Shown here: piece after piece, positions 20,009-64,000 of the stretch | How positions within the stretch are numbered: position 1 is the first letter of the stretch | How the letters are laid out: each line of letters starts with the position of its first letter | Assembly: GCF_000830885.1 (NCBI RefSeq) | Contig: NZ_CP006951.1 | Span: 124,001 to 188,000, forward strand | DNA: 64,000 nt | Source: Dehalococcoides mccartyi CG5 | GTDB taxonomy: Bacteria > Chloroflexota > Dehalococcoidia > Dehalococcoidales > Dehalococcoidaceae | Direction of reading: 5' to 3' | Notes under the pieces: generated by a model | The model's database searches: none | What the model saw: only the letters and a program-made list of their open reading frames with translations | Told to the model about the DNA's origin: nothing | Translations under genes and position numbers: made by a program

Positions 20009-20084
20009 GGGCGGTTAGCTCAGTGGTTAGAGCACCTGCTTCACACGCAGGGGGTCAGTGGTTCAAATCCACTACTGCCCACCA
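20009..20084 (+). tRNA. tRNA-Val (anticodon CAC)
   Basis: A complete cloverleaf is visible. Acceptor GGGCGGT pairs with ACTGCCC, with discriminator A and encoded CCA. The anticodon arm is CCTGC-TTCACAC-GCAGG, giving anticodon CAC. The T arm contains GTTCAAATC. Its 3' side abuts a low-GC patch with an RHS remnant, consistent with use as an integration site. Confidence 0.97.
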
Positions 20085-20100
20085 TTATTTGGATGTAAAA

Positions 20101-20135
20101 AAGCCCTCATGATGTTAGTTTCATGGGGGCTTTTT
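20101..20135 (+). terminator. Terminator after tRNA-Val
   Basis: A 12-bp stem with one G-T pair (20101-20112 with 20121-20132, 8-base loop) is followed by T residues. The RHS-fragment reading frame begins inside this hairpin. Confidence 0.85.
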
Positions 20136-20806
20136 CTATAAATGGCACTAATTTGGTCACTAGCAGCACTGGTACTTCATTTGGCTCAACCAAGTATTAT
20201 CCGTACGGTGTTACCAGAAGCGGTTCCGTACCTACAGACGAGAAGTTTACCGGTCAGAAGCTGGATGGTACCGGGCTATACTATTACAATGCTCGATATT
20301 ATGACCCTATAATCGGTAGATTTTTAAGCGCAGATATACTGGTACAGAATATTCATAACCCCCAGTGTCTTAATAGGTATAGCTATGTATTAAATAATCC
20401 GCTAAAATATATTGATCCGAATGGCCATAGGATGGTAATACCGGGCAATCCACCACAAAATGGCATCCCTTTCCCGGGACCTGAAGGCCCTGGCGGATCG
20501 AGCGGCAATGGTGATTCGGGCGACAGTGGTACAATATTGTTGCCACCTATAGACAATTCGACTGGCGGTTCATCCGCACCTCGACTGAGTACTTATGATG
20601 CAGTCGTAGGTACTTTAGAGGTAGTGGGAGGATGGTTTTGCTGTATTGTCGGCGGAGTAATAATTGCAGCAGCTGGCACTATTCCTATTCCTATTGCTTT
20701 GCCTGTAGGAATAGACTTAATAGTAGTTGGTATAGGGTCTATCTCGGATGGGTTAGGTAGATTTGGATTTGATTTTTATATACCTAATCCTTTCGGTGGT
20801 CCATAA
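20123..20806 (+). pseudogene. RHS/YD-repeat protein C-terminal remnant
   Basis: This 227-codon frame starts within RHS repeat sequence. It has the end of the RHS core (YYPYGV, FTGQKLDGTGLYYYNARYYDP, GRFLSAD and NRYSYVLNNPLKYIDPNG) at residues about 25-110. A Gly/Pro/Ser-rich linker and a hydrophobic Gly-rich tail follow. Complete RHS proteins are far longer, so the 5' part is lost. The first ATG lies in the tRNA-Val terminator and has no ribosome site. The variable C-terminus after the core is where RHS toxins lie, but this one resembles no toxin I know. Base composition is more AT-rich than the flanks. It probably arrived by integration at the tRNA. Confidence 0.8.
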
Positions 20807-21674: not shown

Positions 21675-22355
21675 CTATTCAGCAAAAGACAACCGGTATC
21701 CTATACCGGCTTCGTTTTTAATGATACCGCCGGTCTTCAGGTTTTTTTCCATTTTAATACGCAACCTGGATACATAAACCCGTATACTTTCATCTGAACC
21801 GGGGTAGGCGTGTCCCCACAGGGTATCTGATATATCCCGGTAGTCCACTATTTGGCCGCCTCTTTGCAGCAGAAGGCTCATAATCATGGTTTCCACTCTG
21901 GTCAGTAAAACCCTGTCATTTCGGAACGTAAGTTCGTGTTTGGCACAGTCAATGGTAAGGTCACCGAATTTGATTATGGCCGTATTTGGGCTGATATTTT
22001 TGGATAGGGCTTTTTTAACCCTTGCCAGAAATTCAAGGTGGCGGAATGGTTTGATAATATATTCATCAGCCCCTTGTTCCAGGGCTTTTAACACATTTTC
22101 TTCTTCTTCGCAGGCGGTTACTACAATAATAGGGGCACCGGTAATCGGGCGTATTTCATCCAGAACCTTCAGTCCGTTCATATCCGGCAGACCCAAATCA
22201 AGCATAACCAAATCTGCTTTGTCAGAGTTTATGCTTTCCAGTGCCTCATAGCCGGTACGGCAAATGGTAATCTTGGCGTCATGATAAGACAATTTCAAGA
22301 TAGAGCTGATGGTTGAAGCGGCAGCATCGTTGTCCTCAACTATTAAAATATTCAT
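21675..22355 (-). CDS. Response regulator (OmpR family), dehalogenase-locus
   Basis: The 226-residue protein has a receiver domain (VEDNDAAAS, phospho-acceptor Asp in VMLDLGLPDMNG, Lys in IIKPFRHLEF). The winged-helix output domain ends in IRVYVSRLRIKMEK and AGIGYRLSF. Its start overlaps the end of the kinase gene by 20 bases, so the two are coupled. It likely controls the divergent rdhA-rdhB operon at 24955. It is the last gene of a three-gene leftward operon. Confidence 0.92.
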   Translation of the reverse strand: MNILIVEDNDAAASTISSILKLSYHDAKITICRTGYEALESINSDKADLVMLDLGLPDMNGLKVLDEIRPITGAPIIVVTACEEEENVLKALEQGADEYIIKPFRHLEFLARVKKALSKNISPNTAIIKFGDLTIDCAKHELTFRNDRVLLTRVETMIMSLLLQRGGQIVDYRDISDTLWGHAYPGSDESIRVYVSRLRIKMEKNLKTGGIIKNEAGIGYRLSFAE

Positions 22356-24129
22356 TAGCTATCCTGATATTATCGCGTTCGTTCCGGGATACGGTTTTAA
22401 CCGGTATAGTGAAGGAGAATTCACTGCCTTTCGGTTCTCTGGGGCTATAAATAATATTGCCGCCGTGTGCTTCAACGTAAAGCTTGGCAATAGGCAAGCC
22501 CAACCCCAGACCGCTGAGGTTATGACCGCCGCTAAGTTTGCCGTATTCTGTAAAAAGGTCAGGAATCAGACAAGCAGGTACGCCTGCGCCGCTGTCGCTT
22601 ACAGTAAAGCGAAGAGATTCATTGTCTAGCCGGGTGGCAACTGATACGCTATCCTCCGGTTTGGTATACTTCAGGGCGTTGTCTATCAAATTGGTAAGTA
22701 TTTGCAGCAAACGTTCTTTATCACAGTATATCTCGGAGTTGGCTGTTTCATCACAAAAGACAAGGCTCTTATGCTGTTTCAGGAAGATAGGCATATATCG
22801 TAGCTGCAACTCCTCCATGATATCCTCAATGGAATAGCCGGCCATTTTCAGTTTCAGCATGCCTATTTTACCGCGTTCAAGTTCAATCAAATCATGGATA
22901 CGGCTGTTTAAGGTCTCTGCCCCTTCGCGGATACTGCTGGCCAGATTATAGAGTTCAGTGCCTTTTTCAGATACGTTCACCAAGGCATCACTGGCGGCCA
23001 GAAGGGGGGTCAGGGGGGTTCTGATTTCATGGACCAGAGCTTTAAGATGAGCCTGCCTTTTCTTGGTTTCATCCTGCAGGGCCTGCCTCAGCAGGCACTC
23101 TTTAGTATAGCTCTCCGCTATAGATTTTTCGGATGTTTTTACCTTGGTGATATCTTCCATCCGTCCGCAGATGTTGGATATAGAGCAATTATCATCGTAA
23201 GATACCCAGAGTATCTCTTTTATCCAGGTGGATTCACCGTTTTGGATAATTTCATATTCGGTAGTCAAAGACGAACGGTTAGCAAAACGTTTGCACTTAT
23301 CCAGATACAATCCCCGCTGTTTAAGCAGGGAATCAAGGCCTTTTACCTGAAAACTGCTGTCAGGCTGGCGGCTTATGATAAGTTGTAACAGCTTTTCGCA
23401 TATCTGGTTGGGGGTTGCCGGGGCAACATAAGGGCTGAATATTACATTGTCATGTTTGTCCAGAATATACAGATACTCATCTGAATTGTGGAAAGAGAAC
23501 GGGAAAATCAGCTGATGAGAGGTTTCATCTTCCTCGTCACTGGCAAGCTGTATTTGGGCATAGGCCTGGTCAAGTTTATCTTCTAAAAAGTGGGGCTGCG
23601 GGTGCAGTATCTCAACCGAGTAGTCAAGGATAGTGGTGTTTTTAAGGTTGTTTACATAACTGGCGGCTTTTTCTTCCTCGCCGTTCTCCAGTATAAATGT
23701 TATCGGGGCAGGGTAGATGCCTGCTTCAACCGGTTGCATAACCTCCAGCGTGGGCATATTGTGCCAGCAGGACATGGTGGTGGGATTACGGAAAATATGC
23801 CCCTGTTCTATGCGCTCATGGTAGATGGCGGTGCCTATGGCTGCCTCGTAACAATTATCCAGCTCTACCACTGATAATCTGCCGGCATAATGGTTTTTCA
23901 GCTGAGTAATAGATTCGTTGCACATGCCGTAGTTCAAAATACAGTAGCCGTTTTCCAGAATTGCCCGCTCAATATAATAGGATAGCATCTCTATTTTAAC
24001 GCTGTAGAAGCAGGAGTTGGTTATGGGGTAAATTCGGGCATCCAGATTCCGGTGCAGAGCCCAGTTTTTAACAAAGTTGCTCATGCTTACGCAGGTAACA
24101 ACCCCAACTTTGTTATTTTCGGTTTTCAT
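22336..24129 (-). CDS. Soluble sensor histidine kinase with DUF1638-like N-terminus
   Basis: The kinase has 597 residues and no membrane helix. Residues about 60-125 (LNYGMCNESI with Cys70, VELDNCYEAAIGTAIYHE with Cys93, CWHNM with Cys121) resemble the DUF1638 pattern found with corrinoid methyltransferase genes. A PAS-like region follows near 280-390. The HisKA H-box is ALVHEIRTPLTPL. The ATPase domain has NLIDNALKYT, DSGAGVP and GLGLGLPIAK. It is coupled to the downstream regulator and to the upstream B12-like gene (17-base overlap). The sensed signal is unknown; a corrinoid or methyl-state signal is inference. Confidence 0.85.
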   Translation of the reverse strand: MKTENNKVGVVTCVSMSNFVKNWALHRNLDARIYPITNSCFYSVKIEMLSYYIERAILENGYCILNYGMCNESITQLKNHYAGRLSVVELDNCYEAAIGTAIYHERIEQGHIFRNPTTMSCWHNMPTLEVMQPVEAGIYPAPITFILENGEEEKAASYVNNLKNTTILDYSVEILHPQPHFLEDKLDQAYAQIQLASDEEDETSHQLIFPFSFHNSDEYLYILDKHDNVIFSPYVAPATPNQICEKLLQLIISRQPDSSFQVKGLDSLLKQRGLYLDKCKRFANRSSLTTEYEIIQNGESTWIKEILWVSYDDNCSISNICGRMEDITKVKTSEKSIAESYTKECLLRQALQDETKKRQAHLKALVHEIRTPLTPLLAASDALVNVSEKGTELYNLASSIREGAETLNSRIHDLIELERGKIGMLKLKMAGYSIEDIMEELQLRYMPIFLKQHKSLVFCDETANSEIYCDKERLLQILTNLIDNALKYTKPEDSVSVATRLDNESLRFTVSDSGAGVPACLIPDLFTEYGKLSGGHNLSGLGLGLPIAKLYVEAHGGNIIYSPREPKGSEFSFTIPVKTVSRNERDNIRIANEYFNS

Positions 24130-24712
24130 TTAACAAGTCCTCACTAAGTTTGCAGACAATCTGTTTGAATGAGTCAGGGAAAGAACAAAAAGAAAGTTTG
24201 TCTTTATTCTGGTTTTGATACATAAAAGGTACTCCACCTGCCAGAACATTCAGGCCGGCGGCTTCGAAACAGGGCTTCAGTTTGGCCAGTTTATCAATAT
24301 GGTGAAACAATGTCAGGCTGACAACAACTGTGGGGTGAATCTGGCCTGCCATTTTTTTTATAGTCTGTTCATCAAGCCCCAGCACCACCGGTACAAATCC
24401 ATTCAGTTTCAGATATGCTTCCAGCAGGGTAATGCCCGGAGGTATAAAGGAGATGGGGTTGAAGATGGCTATGGGGGCACAACTGCGGGGCATAGTTTGA
24501 GCTTTTCCAGCTTTGTTTTGGATTATACCGATGAGCCTTCTGATCTCATTATGATGGATTGCCCCCCGTATATAGTCGTCAAACATCTGGTCAACCAGAT
24601 CAATCAGCTTCGCAGTCTCCGAAGGAAGGATGCCGCTAATGGCTTTTTCAAGTTCAGCAGATTGGGTTCTGGTAATCATACTGGTTTCTGACAGTAAATT
24701 CTGATGTACCAT
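24113..24712 (-). CDS. B12-binding-like domain protein lacking the ligand His
   Basis: This 199-residue protein has a helical N-terminal part (about 15-70) and then a flavodoxin-like region that reads as a cobalamin-binding domain. LEAYLKLNGFVPVVLGLD, VVSLTLFHHIDKL and GLNVLAGGVPF match the order and spacing of that family. The DxHxxG motif is replaced by SFIPPG, so the lower-ligand His is Ile90. Related sensors (for example SCHIC domains) bind heme or B12 in another mode. It overlaps the kinase gene by 17 bases. Two starts are possible (24712, 24679) and neither has a strong ribosome site. Confidence 0.7.
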   Translation of the reverse strand: MVHQNLLSETSMITRTQSAELEKAISGILPSETAKLIDLVDQMFDDYIRGAIHHNEIRRLIGIIQNKAGKAQTMPRSCAPIAIFNPISFIPPGITLLEAYLKLNGFVPVVLGLDEQTIKKMAGQIHPTVVVSLTLFHHIDKLAKLKPCFEAAGLNVLAGGVPFMYQNQNKDKLSFCSFPDSFKQIVCKLSEDLLNENRK

Positions 24713-24791
24713 AGTTTTATTTTATATCTATTATAGTGGTAATACAATTCAGCTCCGAACGTTTAGGTGAGGTGTAACAGAACTGATACGG

Positions 24792-24847
24792 GGTATTACT
24801 GATTAGTATCCACTAGTTATTGAGTGTTAGCTACGTGATGTAATACC
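24792..24847. promoter_or_regulatory. Divergent intergenic region with GGTATTAC/GTAATACC dyad
   Basis: Between the B12-like gene and rdhA, GGTATTAC (24792-24799) and GTAATACC (24840-24847) form an 8-bp inverted repeat 40 bases apart. A related GGTAATAC occurs at about 24738-24745. A TTGAGT hexamer at 24820-24825 lies 15 bases before TAATAC. These could be response-regulator sites controlling rdhA. No expression evidence is available from sequence. Confidence 0.35.
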
Positions 24848-24954
24848 ATACGGTTAATGCCCACTGCAGGATAAAGGCGATGCGCGCAATTTGCCTTGGA
24901 GTCTATCGGTGAAGCTAAATCTCATATGGAAAGGTAACCAAAAAGGGTTAAGAC

Positions 24955-26322
24955 ATGGATGAAAAAATAAACCGTCGTGATTTTGTTAAAGGTGCAGGAC
25001 TTGCATCGGCTGCAACCGTTGCCACCCTCATGGCAACAGCTTCAACTGTATCCGCTGAGGAGCTGGTTAATCCGGGCGGAAAAGCTATGGATGAAATGGG
25101 TAATGCTTCTATTAAGCGTGATTTACCGGAGAGTTTTTACAAAAGGATTGAAAACAAAGCTGGTTATATAGGAACTACCAGAGTGGTTGCTCCTACTCAG
25201 AGGCTTGATGCCCGCGAACATGGTTTTTCCCAGATAGTCAGGCGCGGTTCTACCGGTGACTGGTCGGGCGAATCCGGAGACTGGGGACCGATACTTTTAG
25301 CAGCTGTTCAGGAAAAAAAGAAACATGCAGCCGAGATTTCTCCTTTGGAAGCGGCTGATTATACCTGGAGTAATGCTTTCCAGATTGCCATGGACAGGTG
25401 GCATATTACCCTTGAACCGGGCAGGTATCAACAGGCACCCATAGCCGCCACCAAGGTTGAGCTTTCTCCCGAAGAAATGACTGCCAGAATAAAGAAGATT
25501 TGCCGCTGGTTTGGCTGTGAGCAGGTAGGTATCTGCGAAGTAACCGAAGATATGAAGCCTTTCTTCTATAGTGTAGGCAGAACCCGAGGTACTTATACTA
25601 CCGGTCACGCCAACTATGTGGATAACGGCCGTGAAATTCCTTGGCCTTATCCCTACAAATACTGCATTGTGATGGCAGATAAATGTGATACGGATACCCT
25701 GAATGCACTTACCGGGCCTCTGGTTGAAGCCAGTGCCAAGATAGCCTGTTCTCAATCAGATTTCGCCCCCCATTATCTGGAGTCCATTATCCGCTCACTT
25801 GGTCATGATGCCAAGGCCAATATCTTCAGCGATACTGATATTATGGATACTCCTTTTGCCGTCAAAGCCGGTCTTGGCGAACTGGGACGAAGCGGTTTGG
25901 TAATTTCGCCTTGGGGCGCCCAGATGAGAATCATGGAAGTCTTTACCAACCTGCCGCTAGTTCCGGATAAGCCCATAGATTTTGGTCTTCAGGAATTCTG
26001 CAAGGTTTGCAAGAAGTGTGCCGACAACTGTCCCGCCAGTGCTATTTCTATGGACGATGAACCCAGTGAAGTTGATACCGTAGTTAAATCTATCCGTTGG
26101 TTCCAGGATGGTAAAAAGTGTCTGGCTCAGAGACTGGCTTATGGCTGTTCCAAATGCCAGGGTGTATGCCCGTGGTCCAAACCGGACACTCTAATCCACG
26201 AGGTAGGACGCATGGTAGGCCAGAACCCGGCTTTTGCCCCGTTCTTGGTTAAGCTGGACGATTTCTTCTATAACAGATATCCTGAAGGACATGCCACTGG
26301 TGAATGGGCTCCCTGGAGATAG
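24955..26322 (+). CDS. rdhA: Reductive dehalogenase catalytic subunit RdhA
   Basis: The 455-residue corrinoid/iron-sulfur enzyme cleaves carbon-halogen bonds as terminal electron acceptor. It has a twin-arginine leader (NRRDFVKGAGLASAAT), so it is exported and sits on the outer face of the membrane. The C-terminal cluster motifs are complete: CKVCKKCADNCP and a second C-x8-C-x2-C-x3-CP set ending CSKCQGVCPW. The GELGRSGLVISPWG segment before them is characteristic. rdhB follows 48 bases later. The substrate cannot be predicted. Confidence 0.97.
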   Translation: MDEKINRRDFVKGAGLASAATVATLMATASTVSAEELVNPGGKAMDEMGNASIKRDLPESFYKRIENKAGYIGTTRVVAPTQRLDAREHGFSQIVRRGSTGDWSGESGDWGPILLAAVQEKKKHAAEISPLEAADYTWSNAFQIAMDRWHITLEPGRYQQAPIAATKVELSPEEMTARIKKICRWFGCEQVGICEVTEDMKPFFYSVGRTRGTYTTGHANYVDNGREIPWPYPYKYCIVMADKCDTDTLNALTGPLVEASAKIACSQSDFAPHYLESIIRSLGHDAKANIFSDTDIMDTPFAVKAGLGELGRSGLVISPWGAQMRIMEVFTNLPLVPDKPIDFGLQEFCKVCKKCADNCPASAISMDDEPSEVDTVVKSIRWFQDGKKCLAQRLAYGCSKCQGVCPWSKPDTLIHEVGRMVGQNPAFAPFLVKLDDFFYNRYPEGHATGEWAPWR

Positions 26323-26370: not shown

Positions 26371-26658
26371 ATGACAGGAATTGTCTTTTTGTTTGGTCTG
26401 CTTTTAGGTATATTGGGTACCTGGTTATGGCATACCGCTAAAGAACGGAGTATAAAGCTTGCCTGGGTAGATTACCTCCTGATAGCTATATTTGTTTTGA
26501 TGGCTGGTGGCGGTATTTGGTTTGTTAATACCTTTACCGAAGAATCCGTGGCAAGTGCCGCCCGCAGTTCCGGGCTGATATTCGGCCTGCTGGCTCTGCT
26601 GGTGCTGGGTGTAACTTGGCAGCTTATCCGGCGCCGTAATCATAAATCAGGCATTTAA
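26371..26658 (+). CDS. rdhB: Reductive dehalogenase membrane anchor RdhB
   Basis: This 95-residue protein has three membrane helices and the typical anchor loop WFVNTFTEESVASAA between helices 2 and 3. It ends with a basic tail. It tethers the exported RdhA to the membrane. AAAGGAGTTAGAG is a strong ribosome site. It is transcribed with rdhA and a terminator follows. Confidence 0.95.
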   Translation: MTGIVFLFGLLLGILGTWLWHTAKERSIKLAWVDYLLIAIFVLMAGGGIWFVNTFTEESVASAARSSGLIFGLLALLVLGVTWQLIRRRNHKSGI

Positions 26659-59127: not shown

Positions 59128-59469
59128 TTAAGGGGTTATTTTCTGTCCGCAGTTTGGGCAGAACACAACATCTGCTGCCAATCCGATACCGCATTTGGTG
59201 CAGTATTGACCACTTGTGTTTTGACTGTCTGGGGTGGATAGACGGGATTGCACTGGATGAGCAGGTTTGGACGGGTTTTTCAGATAGCTTCTTATCAGAA
59301 GGAATGCTCCTAGCAACATAACTAATGCCGGAAGCCCGGTGACAAAGAAAAACATTCCGGCAACCTGTGGCTCAGTTTCGCTCAGGGAGCCAATGAGGTT
59401 TTGGATGGAAAAAACAAGTACCGGCAATCCCCAAAGGCCCAGCAGTATACCTATAATCAGCCTGACCAT
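59128..59469 (-). CDS. Membrane protein with C-terminal zinc ribbon (1)
   Basis: The 113-residue protein has two membrane helices, then a short linker and one zinc ribbon (YCTKCGIGLAADVVFCPNCGQKITP). The function is unknown. The next gene upstream ends 12 bases away and has the same architecture, so the two are likely a transcription unit. Confidence 0.75.
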   Translation of the reverse strand: MVRLIIGILLGLWGLPVLVFSIQNLIGSLSETEPQVAGMFFFVTGLPALVMLLGAFLLIRSYLKNPSKPAHPVQSRLSTPDSQNTSGQYCTKCGIGLAADVVFCPNCGQKITP

Positions 59470-60540: not shown

Positions 60541-61218
60541 TTATTCAACTATCTGGTAGCCAACTCCGGGTATATTTATGATAAATTCTTTGGAATTATC
60601 AATACGGCTTAGTTTTTGTCTTATCCTCATAATGTGGGTTTTAATAGTTTCTTTGGCATAATATTCGTTGCGCCCCCAAATTGATTTGGATATATCAGCA
60701 TAACTGACAGTACTTCCGGCTTTGGTCAACAAAATGTGCAGCAGCTGGCCTTCTGTAACGGTTAAATTTACGCGAATATTGTTATAAGATATTTCCTTCA
60801 GGCTGGTACCAAATTTCCAGTGCCCGTATTTAACTCCCAGGTCCTGGCTGGCTCTGCTTAGGCGTTTTAACAGGGATTTTACTCTGGCTATAAGTTCCAG
60901 CGGCTGAAAAGGTTTGGTAATATAATCATCTGCACCTAATTCAAAAGCGGTAAAAATCTCCTGTTCATTATTTCTGGCGGTTAAAATAAGTATGGGTAGA
61001 CTGGAAAATGCCCGTATTTGTTTGAGGACATTTATGCCATCAATATCAGGCAGTCCCAGGTCTATTATGGCAATGTCAAAGTCCTCTTTATAAGCAGTCT
61101 CAATGCCGGTTTTACCCAAGTGTACAGCTTTGGTTTCCATATCCGGCCAAAAGGATTTGAATAGTAAGAAGATAGATTCAACTATTTTCTTATCGTCTTC
61201 TATAAATAGCAGTTTCAT
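60541..61218 (-). CDS. Response regulator (OmpR family), second dehalogenase locus
   Basis: The 225-residue protein has a receiver domain (FIEDDKK, phospho-acceptor Asp in AIIDLGLPDIDG, Lys in ITKPFQPLEL) and a winged-helix output domain ending VGYQIVE. The start at 61218 overlaps the stop of the kinase gene (ATGA), so the pair is coupled. It probably regulates the divergent rdhA at 62781. An upstream in-frame start at 61281 lies inside the kinase gene. Confidence 0.92.
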   Translation of the reverse strand: MKLLFIEDDKKIVESIFLLFKSFWPDMETKAVHLGKTGIETAYKEDFDIAIIDLGLPDIDGINVLKQIRAFSSLPILILTARNNEQEIFTAFELGADDYITKPFQPLELIARVKSLLKRLSRASQDLGVKYGHWKFGTSLKEISYNNIRVNLTVTEGQLLHILLTKAGSTVSYADISKSIWGRNEYYAKETIKTHIMRIRQKLSRIDNSKEFIINIPGVGYQIVE

Positions 61219-62495
61219 GCCGGTGTTGCCTTTGATGGCGGTTGCGGGATGGTAAACAGGAAGGTGGTGCCCTTGCCGCATTCACTTTCAACCCAGATAC
61301 GTCCGCCATGCAGTTTGACGTATGTTCTTACAATGCTGAGCCCCAGCCCCAGCCCTTGTAGCTTCCTCTGCCTGTTTTCCACCCGGTAATAGGGCTTGAA
61401 TATGTTCTTAATCTCGCCTGGTTCTATCCCGATACCGCTGTCTGAAATAGAAAAAAGGACATTATTCTGGTCATGGCTGATATTGATAGATATAATCCCG
61501 GAATCTGCAGAGTATTTTATGGCGTTATCTATCAGATTATCCAGAATTTGCTTTAAACGGTCTTCATCAGCAATTATAAACGTTACTTCGGGTGCAATAA
61601 CTATATTAAAAACAATATGGTTGGTATTGCATATTTCCTGCTGGATGGAGATTATATGCTCCAGCATTTCTTTGATGTTGAAACGGCTTTTGTTTAGTTT
61701 TGGGTCTCTGACTTCACACTGAGCCATATCCAGAAGTTCGTCAAGGCGGATATTTAAATTCATAGTACTTTCATAAATATTGGAAGCCAGTGCCTTGTAT
61801 TTTCCATCAGCGGCTATATTGGAAAGTACCCCGCTGGATGAAATTATGGAGGTAAGGGGTGTTTTTAAGTCGTGGACTACAATTCGGGTAAATTCCAGAC
61901 GGCTTTTCATTTCTGTCTGTATTCGTTTGCGCAGTTTCTTTTCATTTTCATAAGACACCATAAGCTGGTTATAAATGAGTTTGCGTTTATTAATCTCGTC
62001 AGACAATAGTTTGTTTACATCAATGTCAGGGTTCTCCTGGCTGGATGAAGCGGGATTGCTTGAAATACTGAGAGGTGTTGAAGATGACAAGGTGGTTTCT
62101 TTAGTAATATCTTTTATAAAAGTGACACTCAAAATTCCGTTGTCAGCGTTGTCTTTTAAAAGAAAGCCCTCTGATTCTGCCCAGATACATCCGCCGTCTT
62201 TTTTAGAGTAGCGTTTAATGATTTTTGAATAACAGTGTTCATCGTCCCAGATTTTCATGGCGTGCTTGTAGCTGATTTCCATATCATCCGGGTGGGTAAT
62301 ATCAAACATGGTTTTACCCAGAAGTTCTTTTTTCCTGTATCCGAGCATCTTGCACAAAGCCTGGTTAACTCGGATTATCTGGTGCATCTTCTGATCCACA
62401 ATAGTTATTCCTACCAGAGTGTTATGCTGCATTATTTTAACAATCTGGCTGCAATAATCAGCTGTTCCAATCCGTTCTGGTGAAGGCATTTTCAT
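61215..62495 (-). CDS. Soluble PAS-domain sensor histidine kinase, second dehalogenase locus
   Basis: The 426-residue kinase has no membrane segment. A PAS domain (residues about 20-130) ends with a typical FIKDITKE segment. Then come HisKA (RIVVHDLKTPLTSIISS) and the ATPase domain (NLIDNAIKYS, DSGIGIEPGE, GLGLGLSIVR). It senses an internal signal, perhaps redox or a halogenated compound, through PAS. Its start at 62495 follows AAGGAG; the ATG at 62516, preceded by AAGGGG, is an alternative. The coupled regulator and divergent rdhA are typical of Dehalococcoides. Confidence 0.9.
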   Translation of the reverse strand: MKMPSPERIGTADYCSQIVKIMQHNTLVGITIVDQKMHQIIRVNQALCKMLGYRKKELLGKTMFDITHPDDMEISYKHAMKIWDDEHCYSKIIKRYSKKDGGCIWAESEGFLLKDNADNGILSVTFIKDITKETTLSSSTPLSISSNPASSSQENPDIDVNKLLSDEINKRKLIYNQLMVSYENEKKLRKRIQTEMKSRLEFTRIVVHDLKTPLTSIISSSGVLSNIAADGKYKALASNIYESTMNLNIRLDELLDMAQCEVRDPKLNKSRFNIKEMLEHIISIQQEICNTNHIVFNIVIAPEVTFIIADEDRLKQILDNLIDNAIKYSADSGIISINISHDQNNVLFSISDSGIGIEPGEIKNIFKPYYRVENRQRKLQGLGLGLSIVRTYVKLHGGRIWVESECGKGTTFLFTIPQPPSKATPA

Positions 62496-62630
62496 CAGGT
62501 GCTCCTTAAATCTCATTTTATACCCCTTATTTTCGAAGGACAATGACTGTTACAAATCTTTACCGCAATTTCATTATTTATAACCGTAAATACATTCTCC
62601 TGTTACTGGGGTGTTGGTACACTCCATTGA

Positions 62631-62780: not shown

Positions 62781-64000
62781 ATGAATAAATTCCATTCAAG
62801 CGTAAGCCGCCGGGATTTTATGAAAGGGCTGGGAATAGCCGGGGCAGGATTGGGAGCTGCGGCAGCTACCGTGCCGGTTTTTCATGATTTGGATGAAGCT
62901 GTCTCTGCGCCTGTAGCTGGCGGTTTCAGACGCCCGTGGTGGGTTAAGGAACGTGAATATGAAGACCCTACCTGCGAAGTAGACTGGAGCCAGATAGAGC
63001 GTTCGGACAATTCGTGGATTATGCACGGGGTGCGGAACGGGGTAAAGGGCGGTTACCTGTTTGCCGGGCAGAAATACCTTGACTGGCAGAAGGAAGGTTC
63101 TGACCAGGCTTTTAACGGGGTTAAAAACAATGAACCCGGCCTTACTCTTCGGGATATGGCCCTTGAGGGCGGCGCATCTCCATTGCTTATGGGTTTAAAC
63201 AAAGTGGTTAATTTTGTGTTGCCTGAAATTGACCAGGATCAGGTTCTGGCTCAGTTCGGCTTTACCGCTGCTGCTTGGCCCAATGCCTCGTCTTTCTGGG
63301 TGGCATCCGCCCCGCCGGATTTCTGGGGAGTACCGAAGTGGCAGGGCACACCCGAAGAAAATTCTCGCATGCTGCGTTCAGCCATGCGTTTCTTTGGTGC
63401 TTCCGAGGTGCGTTTTGCCGAGTTGAATGAAAAAACCAAGAAACTCATTTTTACCCATCATGTACACAATACACCCATTGTATTTGAAGATGTAGACAAG
63501 GCTTATGAAGTTGCAGGCCAAAAGTTTGTTCTGCCCGACAAGCCGCTTTATATCGTCAGTGTAGCCGTTCAGATGAGCAAGGAAATGTACCGCCAGGGTA
63601 ATGCCGGCATTCGTTTTGCCGCTAATAACATGCGGTACCGCCTTAATAATGTGGTGCAGGTAGCTACCCAGTCATTTTTAAAAGGCATCGGTTATCAGGG
63701 TATCGGATATCCTTCGGAGTCTCTTTTCCATGGTATGATGCCTTCTCAGGCTGATGCCATTCTGACCGGTTTTGCCGAAATGGCAAGGAATAACAACTAC
63801 TGCATAAGCCCGGAATTCGGGACGGTGGCTGGTTATTACAGTATTCTTACAGATCTGCCTCTGGCTCCGGACAAGCCGATAGATGCAGGCTATTTCCGTT
63901 TCTGCCATACCTGCCGGAAATGTGCTGAGGCTTGCCCCTCCCAGGCTATCTCTTTTGACAGCGAACCTACCTGGGATATACCCCCATCTTCAGTAGATCC
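62781..64000 (+). CDS. rdhA: Reductive dehalogenase RdhA, partial (runs off right edge)
   Basis: The frame is open from the ATG at 62781 to the window edge, giving 406 codons with no stop. The start follows GGAGAGGG. A twin-arginine leader (SRRDFMKGLGIAGAGLGAA) marks export. Middle segments (RSAMRFFGASEVRFAELNE, IGYQGIGYP, FGTVAGYYSILTDLP) fit the family, and the first cluster motif CHTCRKCAEACP is complete. The second cluster motif and the rdhB gene would lie beyond the edge. It is divergent from its kinase/regulator pair. The substrate is unknown. Confidence 0.95.
   Translation, partial: MNKFHSSVSRRDFMKGLGIAGAGLGAAAATVPVFHDLDEAVSAPVAGGFRRPWWVKEREYEDPTCEVDWSQIERSDNSWIMHGVRNGVKGGYLFAGQKYLDWQKEGSDQAFNGVKNNEPGLTLRDMALEGGASPLLMGLNKVVNFVLPEIDQDQVLAQFGFTAAAWPNASSFWVASAPPDFWGVPKWQGTPEENSRMLRSAMRFFGASEVRFAELNEKTKKLIFTHHVHNTPIVFEDVDKAYEVAGQKFVLPDKPLYIVSVAVQMSKEMYRQGNAGIRFAANNMRYRLNNVVQVATQSFLKGIGYQGIGYPSESLFHGMMPSQADAILTGFAEMARNNNYCISPEFGTVAGYYSILTDLPLAPDKPIDAGYFRFCHTCRKCAEACPSQAISFDSEPTWDIPPSSVD

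Follow-up and report, generated by a model that had tools for sequence, protein, structure and literature searches.

The window analyzed here is a 64,000-nucleotide stretch of Dehalococcoides mccartyi CG5 (contig NZ_CP006951.1, positions 124,001 to 188,000), the genome of which comprises 1,362,151 bp. Within it, three genes on the minus strand, with overlaps of 17 and 20 bases, point away from a plus-strand rdhA that starts at a distance of 242 bp, an arrangement noted in a preliminary description of this DNA and confirmed here. The first ORF (24113-24712) encodes a 199-aa protein, here referred to as COB, with a predicted helical bundle and Rossmann-like fold of the B12-binding type, in which the cobalt-ligating His is missing. 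The second ORF (22336-24129) encodes a 597-aa soluble sensor histidine kinase in which, based on Pfam and comparison with relatives, residues 1-205 (23515-24129) form a DUF1638-type input domain, followed by a diverged PAS region (residues about 206-345; 23095-23514) and by the HisKA and HATPase_c domains (residues 358-578; 22396-23058) with the H-box, N-box, G1 and G2 motifs all in place. The third gene (21675-22355) encodes, as had been proposed, a response regulator; it is 226 aa long and of the OmpR type, with Response_reg and Trans_reg_C domains in Pfam and the receiver Asp and Lys present. Together, the kinase motifs, receiver residues and DNA-binding domain are those of a two-component system. 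No transmembrane segment was detected in any of the three proteins; a soluble trio that adjoins rdhA has the two features by which rdhPS regulators are recognized, i.e. an rdhA neighbor and no transmembrane segment. Beyond the intergenic region (24713-24954) lie rdhA (24955-26322), which encodes a protein with a Tat-type signal and a match to TIGR02486 (RDH) at 3e-56, and a gene for a 95-aa rdhB-type membrane anchor (26371-26658), both on the plus strand. A possible old insertion site lies at 20009-20806, where a tRNA gene is directly followed by a C-terminal fragment that is RHS-repeat-like.

In each of the two other Dehalococcoides genomes compared, an orthologous trio occupies the corresponding position, with the gene order unchanged. 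The dN/dS values are 0.18-0.22 for COB, 0.08-0.10 for the kinase, 0.05-0.06 for the regulator and 0.03-0.09 for RdhA; thus, COB is under constraint but the loosest of the four genes tested. Because the orthologues are found at the same place, the three genes have dN/dS values of 0.05-0.22, and COB and the kinase are paired in 17 of 17 places (see below), the trio is real beyond chance. Based on synteny and position, the window rdhA is probably the orthologue of DET0180/cbdbA187, the sole full-length rdhA that is kept syntenic in four strains (PMC2764846). For DET0180, an increase upon the transition to stationary phase, while TCE is being depleted, has been reported (PMC2764846), and this counts against a model of pure substrate induction. 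The divergent intergenic region is highly conserved across three Dehalococcoides species, with a mean identity of 91% over 291 aligned columns that include short coding ends. Copies of GTATTAC at 24739 (-), 24793 (+) and 24840 (-) are candidate regulator sites; two of these copies lie within GGTATTAC, a sequence that occurs only three times in the window. A cobamide riboswitch in the promoter was ruled out, a tRNA being the only Rfam match in the window. The position of the trio and the conserved divergent promoter region suggest that the trio may control rdhA.

COB had been described as B12-binding-like, and its predicted fold bears this out. The window COB gave no Pfam match, and the cut-offs of PF02310 and PF02607 were not reached. 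Its relatives matched the B12-binding family PF02310 below cut-off (for L067, 1.9e-5 and 25 bits against a cut-off of 32.1 bits), as did the family alignment, A2 (best 3.1e-5), while the COB profile matched an intact corrinoid protein with an E-value of 8e-7 and a probability of 91.6%. Solved structures related by sequence to COB or to the DUF1638 region were sought, and none of note was found. A structure model of COB was built from 4 sequences, none of them from the genome profile search described below (mean pLDDT 67). Proteins that depend on B12 or have a B12 fold make up all of its top 13 Foldseek matches, including MttC (7xcn, 2.7e-4), 4jgi (4.8e-4), a MerR-type B12 sensor, AerR and MetH. 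A Desulfitobacterium cobalamin-binding protein is among the best matches and CarH-type sensors are among the fold matches, so that the structural check proposed earlier, in which the absence of a B12-fold match would have spoken against the idea, came out in its favor for COB. In VIA-align, the model aligns with 4jgi at Z 8.5 (146 residues), and the better matches span 8.5-9.4, with some unrelated Rossmann folds reaching similar Z. We conclude that COB has a corrinoid-protein fold and is probably descended from corrinoid proteins; cobamide binding is putative.

COB resembles the corrinoid proteins of MttC/MtmC-type methyltransferases (PF02607 and PF02310) in its helical bundle, Rossmann fold, and Ser/Thr and Gly-Gly signature positions, which are kept in all 17 distinct COBs of the family. 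By contrast, when the COBs are aligned with intact corrinoid proteins, the DxHxxG His that ligates cobalt is missing in 17/17, its position being taken by I, Q, V, L or a different non-His residue, but present in 8/8 corrinoid-protein comparators; no other invariant His was found across the COB alignment. COB also differs from the MttC/MtmC type in being paired with a kinase and in lacking an adjacent methyltransferase; a gene for a UroD-type methyltransferase was sought in the trio and the ORFs beside it, and none was found. With the His missing and no methyltransferase gene, it is unlikely that COB functions as an ordinary methyl carrier.

The N-terminus of the window kinase matches DUF1638 (PF07796) at 1.1e-4 and 22.6 bits, i.e. 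under the 27-bit cut-off. However, paralogues (43.7 and 35.7 bits) and relatives (40.8 and 33.5 bits) exceed this cut-off, which supports the earlier assignment of a DUF1638-like N-terminus. Pfam recognizes PAS_3 in paralogues only (in family kinases, L015 at 1.6e-7 and L058 at 6.6e-13); the PAS region of the window's own kinase is diverged beyond Pfam recognition. The window has a second two-component system of the rdh kind (60541-62543), divergent from an rdhA starting at 62781; its PAS-HisKA kinase lacks DUF1638, and no COB gene adjoins it. Thus, the contrast drawn in the preliminary description, a plain PAS domain there instead of the input domain here, holds for the second kinase but not for the trio family, in which DUF1638 is present in addition to PAS. 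An rdhB-like ORF at 59128-59469 has no rdhA visible beside it. A structure model of the DUF1638 domain, likewise from four sequences (pLDDT 50), was too poor for use. Genetic evidence from Phaeobacter connects DUF1638 with B12 reactivation, in that B12-dependent synthesis of methionine requires both DUF1638 and a RamA-like protein (PMC5764234); in Ruegeria, DUF1638 is predicted to function in cobalamin recharging (PMC12478193). Based on the requirement for both proteins in methionine synthesis, DUF1638 plausibly docks on corrinoid proteins. The family kinases share the YGxC and xC motifs and the corrinoid-protein link with the DUF1638 proteins of corrinoid reactivation and methionine synthesis; the latter are stand-alone proteins beside RamA-like proteins, whereas here the domain is fused to a PAS-histidine kinase.

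Four Cys residues of the kinase input (Cys13, Cys40, Cys70 and Cys93) are invariant across 11 aligned relatives. A supposed loss of a His beside Cys93 was dropped as a feature because canonical DUF1638 proteins have D, H or N at this position. The invariant Cys residues raise the alternative that the trio is a heme or thiol redox sensor, in which COB or the four Cys would hold heme, a metal or a disulfide in the manner of SCHIC-type B12-fold proteins. AppA (SCHIC) is among the VIA-align matches of the COB model (Z 7.4-7.5), redox cues have been proposed for these soluble kinases (PMC13390414), and the stationary-phase rise of DET0180 would fit. However, COB has no invariant His and the paralogues are strongly diverged, and we consider this alternative rather unlikely.

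A scan for the kinase input with one peptide pattern returned three loci, and a genome profile search extended the coverage. COB (profile A2) and the DUF1638 kinase (profile A1) were found in the same 17 places, spread over 9 of the 11 Dehalococcoidaceae genomes, and both are absent from the remaining two; in the A1 search, the score falls from 229 to 67 bits at the next DUF1638 match in the class. In all 17 places, the two genes are adjacent and in one order, and neither occurs alone. This strict pairing suggests that the kinase input would dock on COB. Moreover, the distance matrices of COB are correlated with those of DUF1638 (r 0.91-0.94) and of the regulator (r 0.88-0.92), with a permutation p of 0.0002, and in a non-redundant set the within-trio correlations are 0.85-0.96. 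These observations bear on the possibility that the system is an ordinary rdh two-component system and COB a decaying, non-functional relic. In line with a relic, COB shows the lowest conservation within the locus (73-83% identity against 95-96% for RdhA), and its dN/dS exceeds those of the other three genes; yet, this value is well below 1, the open frame is intact in 17/17 places and in three further pairs outside Dehalococcoidaceae, and COB is strictly paired and co-diverges with the kinase input. We therefore consider this possibility very unlikely.

As for the proposed tie of the trio to rdhA, an rdhA lies within about 5 kb of the pair in all 17 places, which supports it. In the host genome, 11.5% of the sequence lies that near an rdhA, and all three trios are found there (p about 0.0015). 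One trio-rdhA unit is common to both genera, with 72-82% identity for RdhA and 38-46% for COB. Trio distances are more weakly correlated with those of RdhA (r 0.37-0.54, the value of 0.54 being at p 0.003 in the non-redundant set), and co-divergence of trio and rdhA outside near-identical orthologues is weak. Three further pairs of COB and a DUF1638-PAS kinase were found in two Neomarinimicrobiota genomes and one Desulfobacterales genome (L067, L068 and L069), with no rdhA seen in the fetched flanks. Going by these three, the sensor pair is not tied to dehalogenation, from which it would follow that control of rdhA is a local use of the sensor module. Several family members are altered. The kinase of the second trio of the host genome (L016, 3072-4913; at about 191 kb, just beyond the window) is split by an in-frame stop in the PAS region, with both pieces still at low dN/dS and the kinase of its relative L019 whole. 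In two Dehalogenimonas genomes (L059, 3381-4800, and L005), the DUF1638 kinase is shortened to about 203 aa beside a transposase gene. The cerA locus of a 2.07-Mb Dehalogenimonas genome is probably not of this trio type, judging by locus-tag order.

Among the three trios of the host genome, with L019 standing in for the one with the interrupted kinase, the sensor parts are 21-23% (COB) and 23-36% (DUF1638) identical and the output parts 34-40% (kinase cores) and 36-51% (regulators). Because the sensor parts have diverged most and lie beside three different rdhA, we favor substrate-specific ligands that differ between trios. The alternative that the trio gauges the availability or state of cobamide or methyl-cobamide, so that rdhA is made only when its cofactor is present, is possible, if doubtful on balance. 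It would fit the B12-type fold with its retained Ser/Thr and Gly-Gly positions, the links of DUF1638 to B12 reactivation and cobalamin recharging in Phaeobacter and Ruegeria (PMC5764234, PMC12478193), and the salvage of cobamides by Dehalogenimonas (PMC13390414). However, the His ligand is missing throughout and the methyltransferase is lacking, one universal signal would not require three trios within one genome with COBs this different, and the host genome has only three trios against 26 rdhA matches. For the same reasons, i.e. the missing His, the lack of a methyltransferase gene and sensor parts 21-36% identical against 34-51% for the outputs, the initial proposal that the operon measures corrinoid or methyl-corrinoid is unsupported as written.

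The origin of the module is suggested by operons in other Chloroflexota and in Desulfobacterota, in which an intact corrinoid protein (DxHxxG) is followed by a UroD-type methyltransferase and then by DUF1638 and a signaling output, and neighboring genes overlap mostly by 4 bases. DUF1638 is joined to a PAS-histidine kinase in L103 (3652-7512; the domain lies below the Pfam report level and was recognized via A1 and phmmer) and to GAF-PAS-HD-GYP in L104 (3205-7486), is separate and followed by a hybrid histidine kinase in L106 (1971-6380) or a kinase in L107 (2538-7132), and comes with a GAF-GGDEF output in L060-L063. These operons support the association of B12-binding and DUF1638 proteins with corrinoid methyltransferases invoked at the outset. 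A tree of 36 DUF1638 domains unites the kinases of Dehalococcoidaceae, Neomarinimicrobiota and Desulfobacterales in a single clade (96/96). This clade is grouped with the signaling clade of L060, L061, L063 and L103 (80/93), apart from stand-alone DUF1638 proteins; the support for joining the two clades is moderate. The trio linked to rdhA thus appears to be a stripped descendant of a corrinoid-methyltransferase sensor operon, and in the simplest history such a sensor would have lost its methyltransferase and His ligand. The operons with intact corrinoid proteins apparently represent an undescribed class of methyltransferase-based sensors, and a literature search of limited scope did not find this wider class. 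The mec cassette of dichloromethane fermenters similarly clusters a histidine kinase, a regulator, a corrinoid protein and methyltransferases but differs in that its kinase has a PocR domain and its corrinoid protein and methyltransferases are taken as catalytic (PMC9768040).

Based on these data, we suggest a model in which COB would join with the DUF1638-PAS portion of the kinase in one two-protein cytoplasmic sensor. In this model, the input would descend from a corrinoid-protein/UroD-methyltransferase/DUF1638 operon by loss of the methyltransferase and the cobalt-ligating His, while COB would retain the frame of a B12-type pocket (Ser/Thr, Gly-Gly). The signal would most likely be trio-specific and linked to the substrate of the neighboring dehalogenase, and may be bound in the COB/DUF1638 pocket or reported via a cobamide held without a His ligand. 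The kinase would phosphorylate the OmpR-type regulator, which would act on the divergent promoter common to rdhAB and the trio. We consider this model, taken as a whole, reasonably probable. Reductive dehalogenases themselves use cobamide base-off without a protein His ligand, as seen in RdhA structures. COB might similarly hold a base-off cobamide and sense organohalides by reacting with them, as a non-catalytic mimic of a dehalogenase active site that feeds the kinase, and the individual trios might be tuned to the substrates of their respective rdhA; this bolder version of the model is quite unlikely. B12-type folds are also used in regulation by CarH, AerR and the SCHIC domain of AppA, which act directly on DNA or on regulators; CarH retains the His ligand, and none of them has a DUF1638 kinase.

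The rdhPS systems of Dehalococcoides and Dehalogenimonas (PMC13390414) likewise have a soluble kinase and a regulator beside rdhA, and most rdhA lack the COB/DUF1638 input. In the available portion of that 2026 paper, the signal of the soluble kinases beside rdhA is stated as open, and neither a DUF1638 input nor a COB partner is mentioned. The dcpA islands that it places at 1,384,297-1,407,259 and 1,612,218-1,635,409 of two Dehalogenimonas genomes would, with the genomes matched by us, enclose two trios of the present type, a position by which one type of trio would be connected with 1,2-dichloropropane. The input can now be named as a degenerate corrinoid protein together with DUF1638, a strict pair in two genera and beyond, and this sensor pair is linked to sensory operons of the corrinoid-methyltransferase type, which have outputs of several kinds. 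Because the proteins are small and soluble, the kinase signal is testable, and the pair provides a concrete lead on what tells pollutant-respiring bacteria to switch on their dehalogenases.
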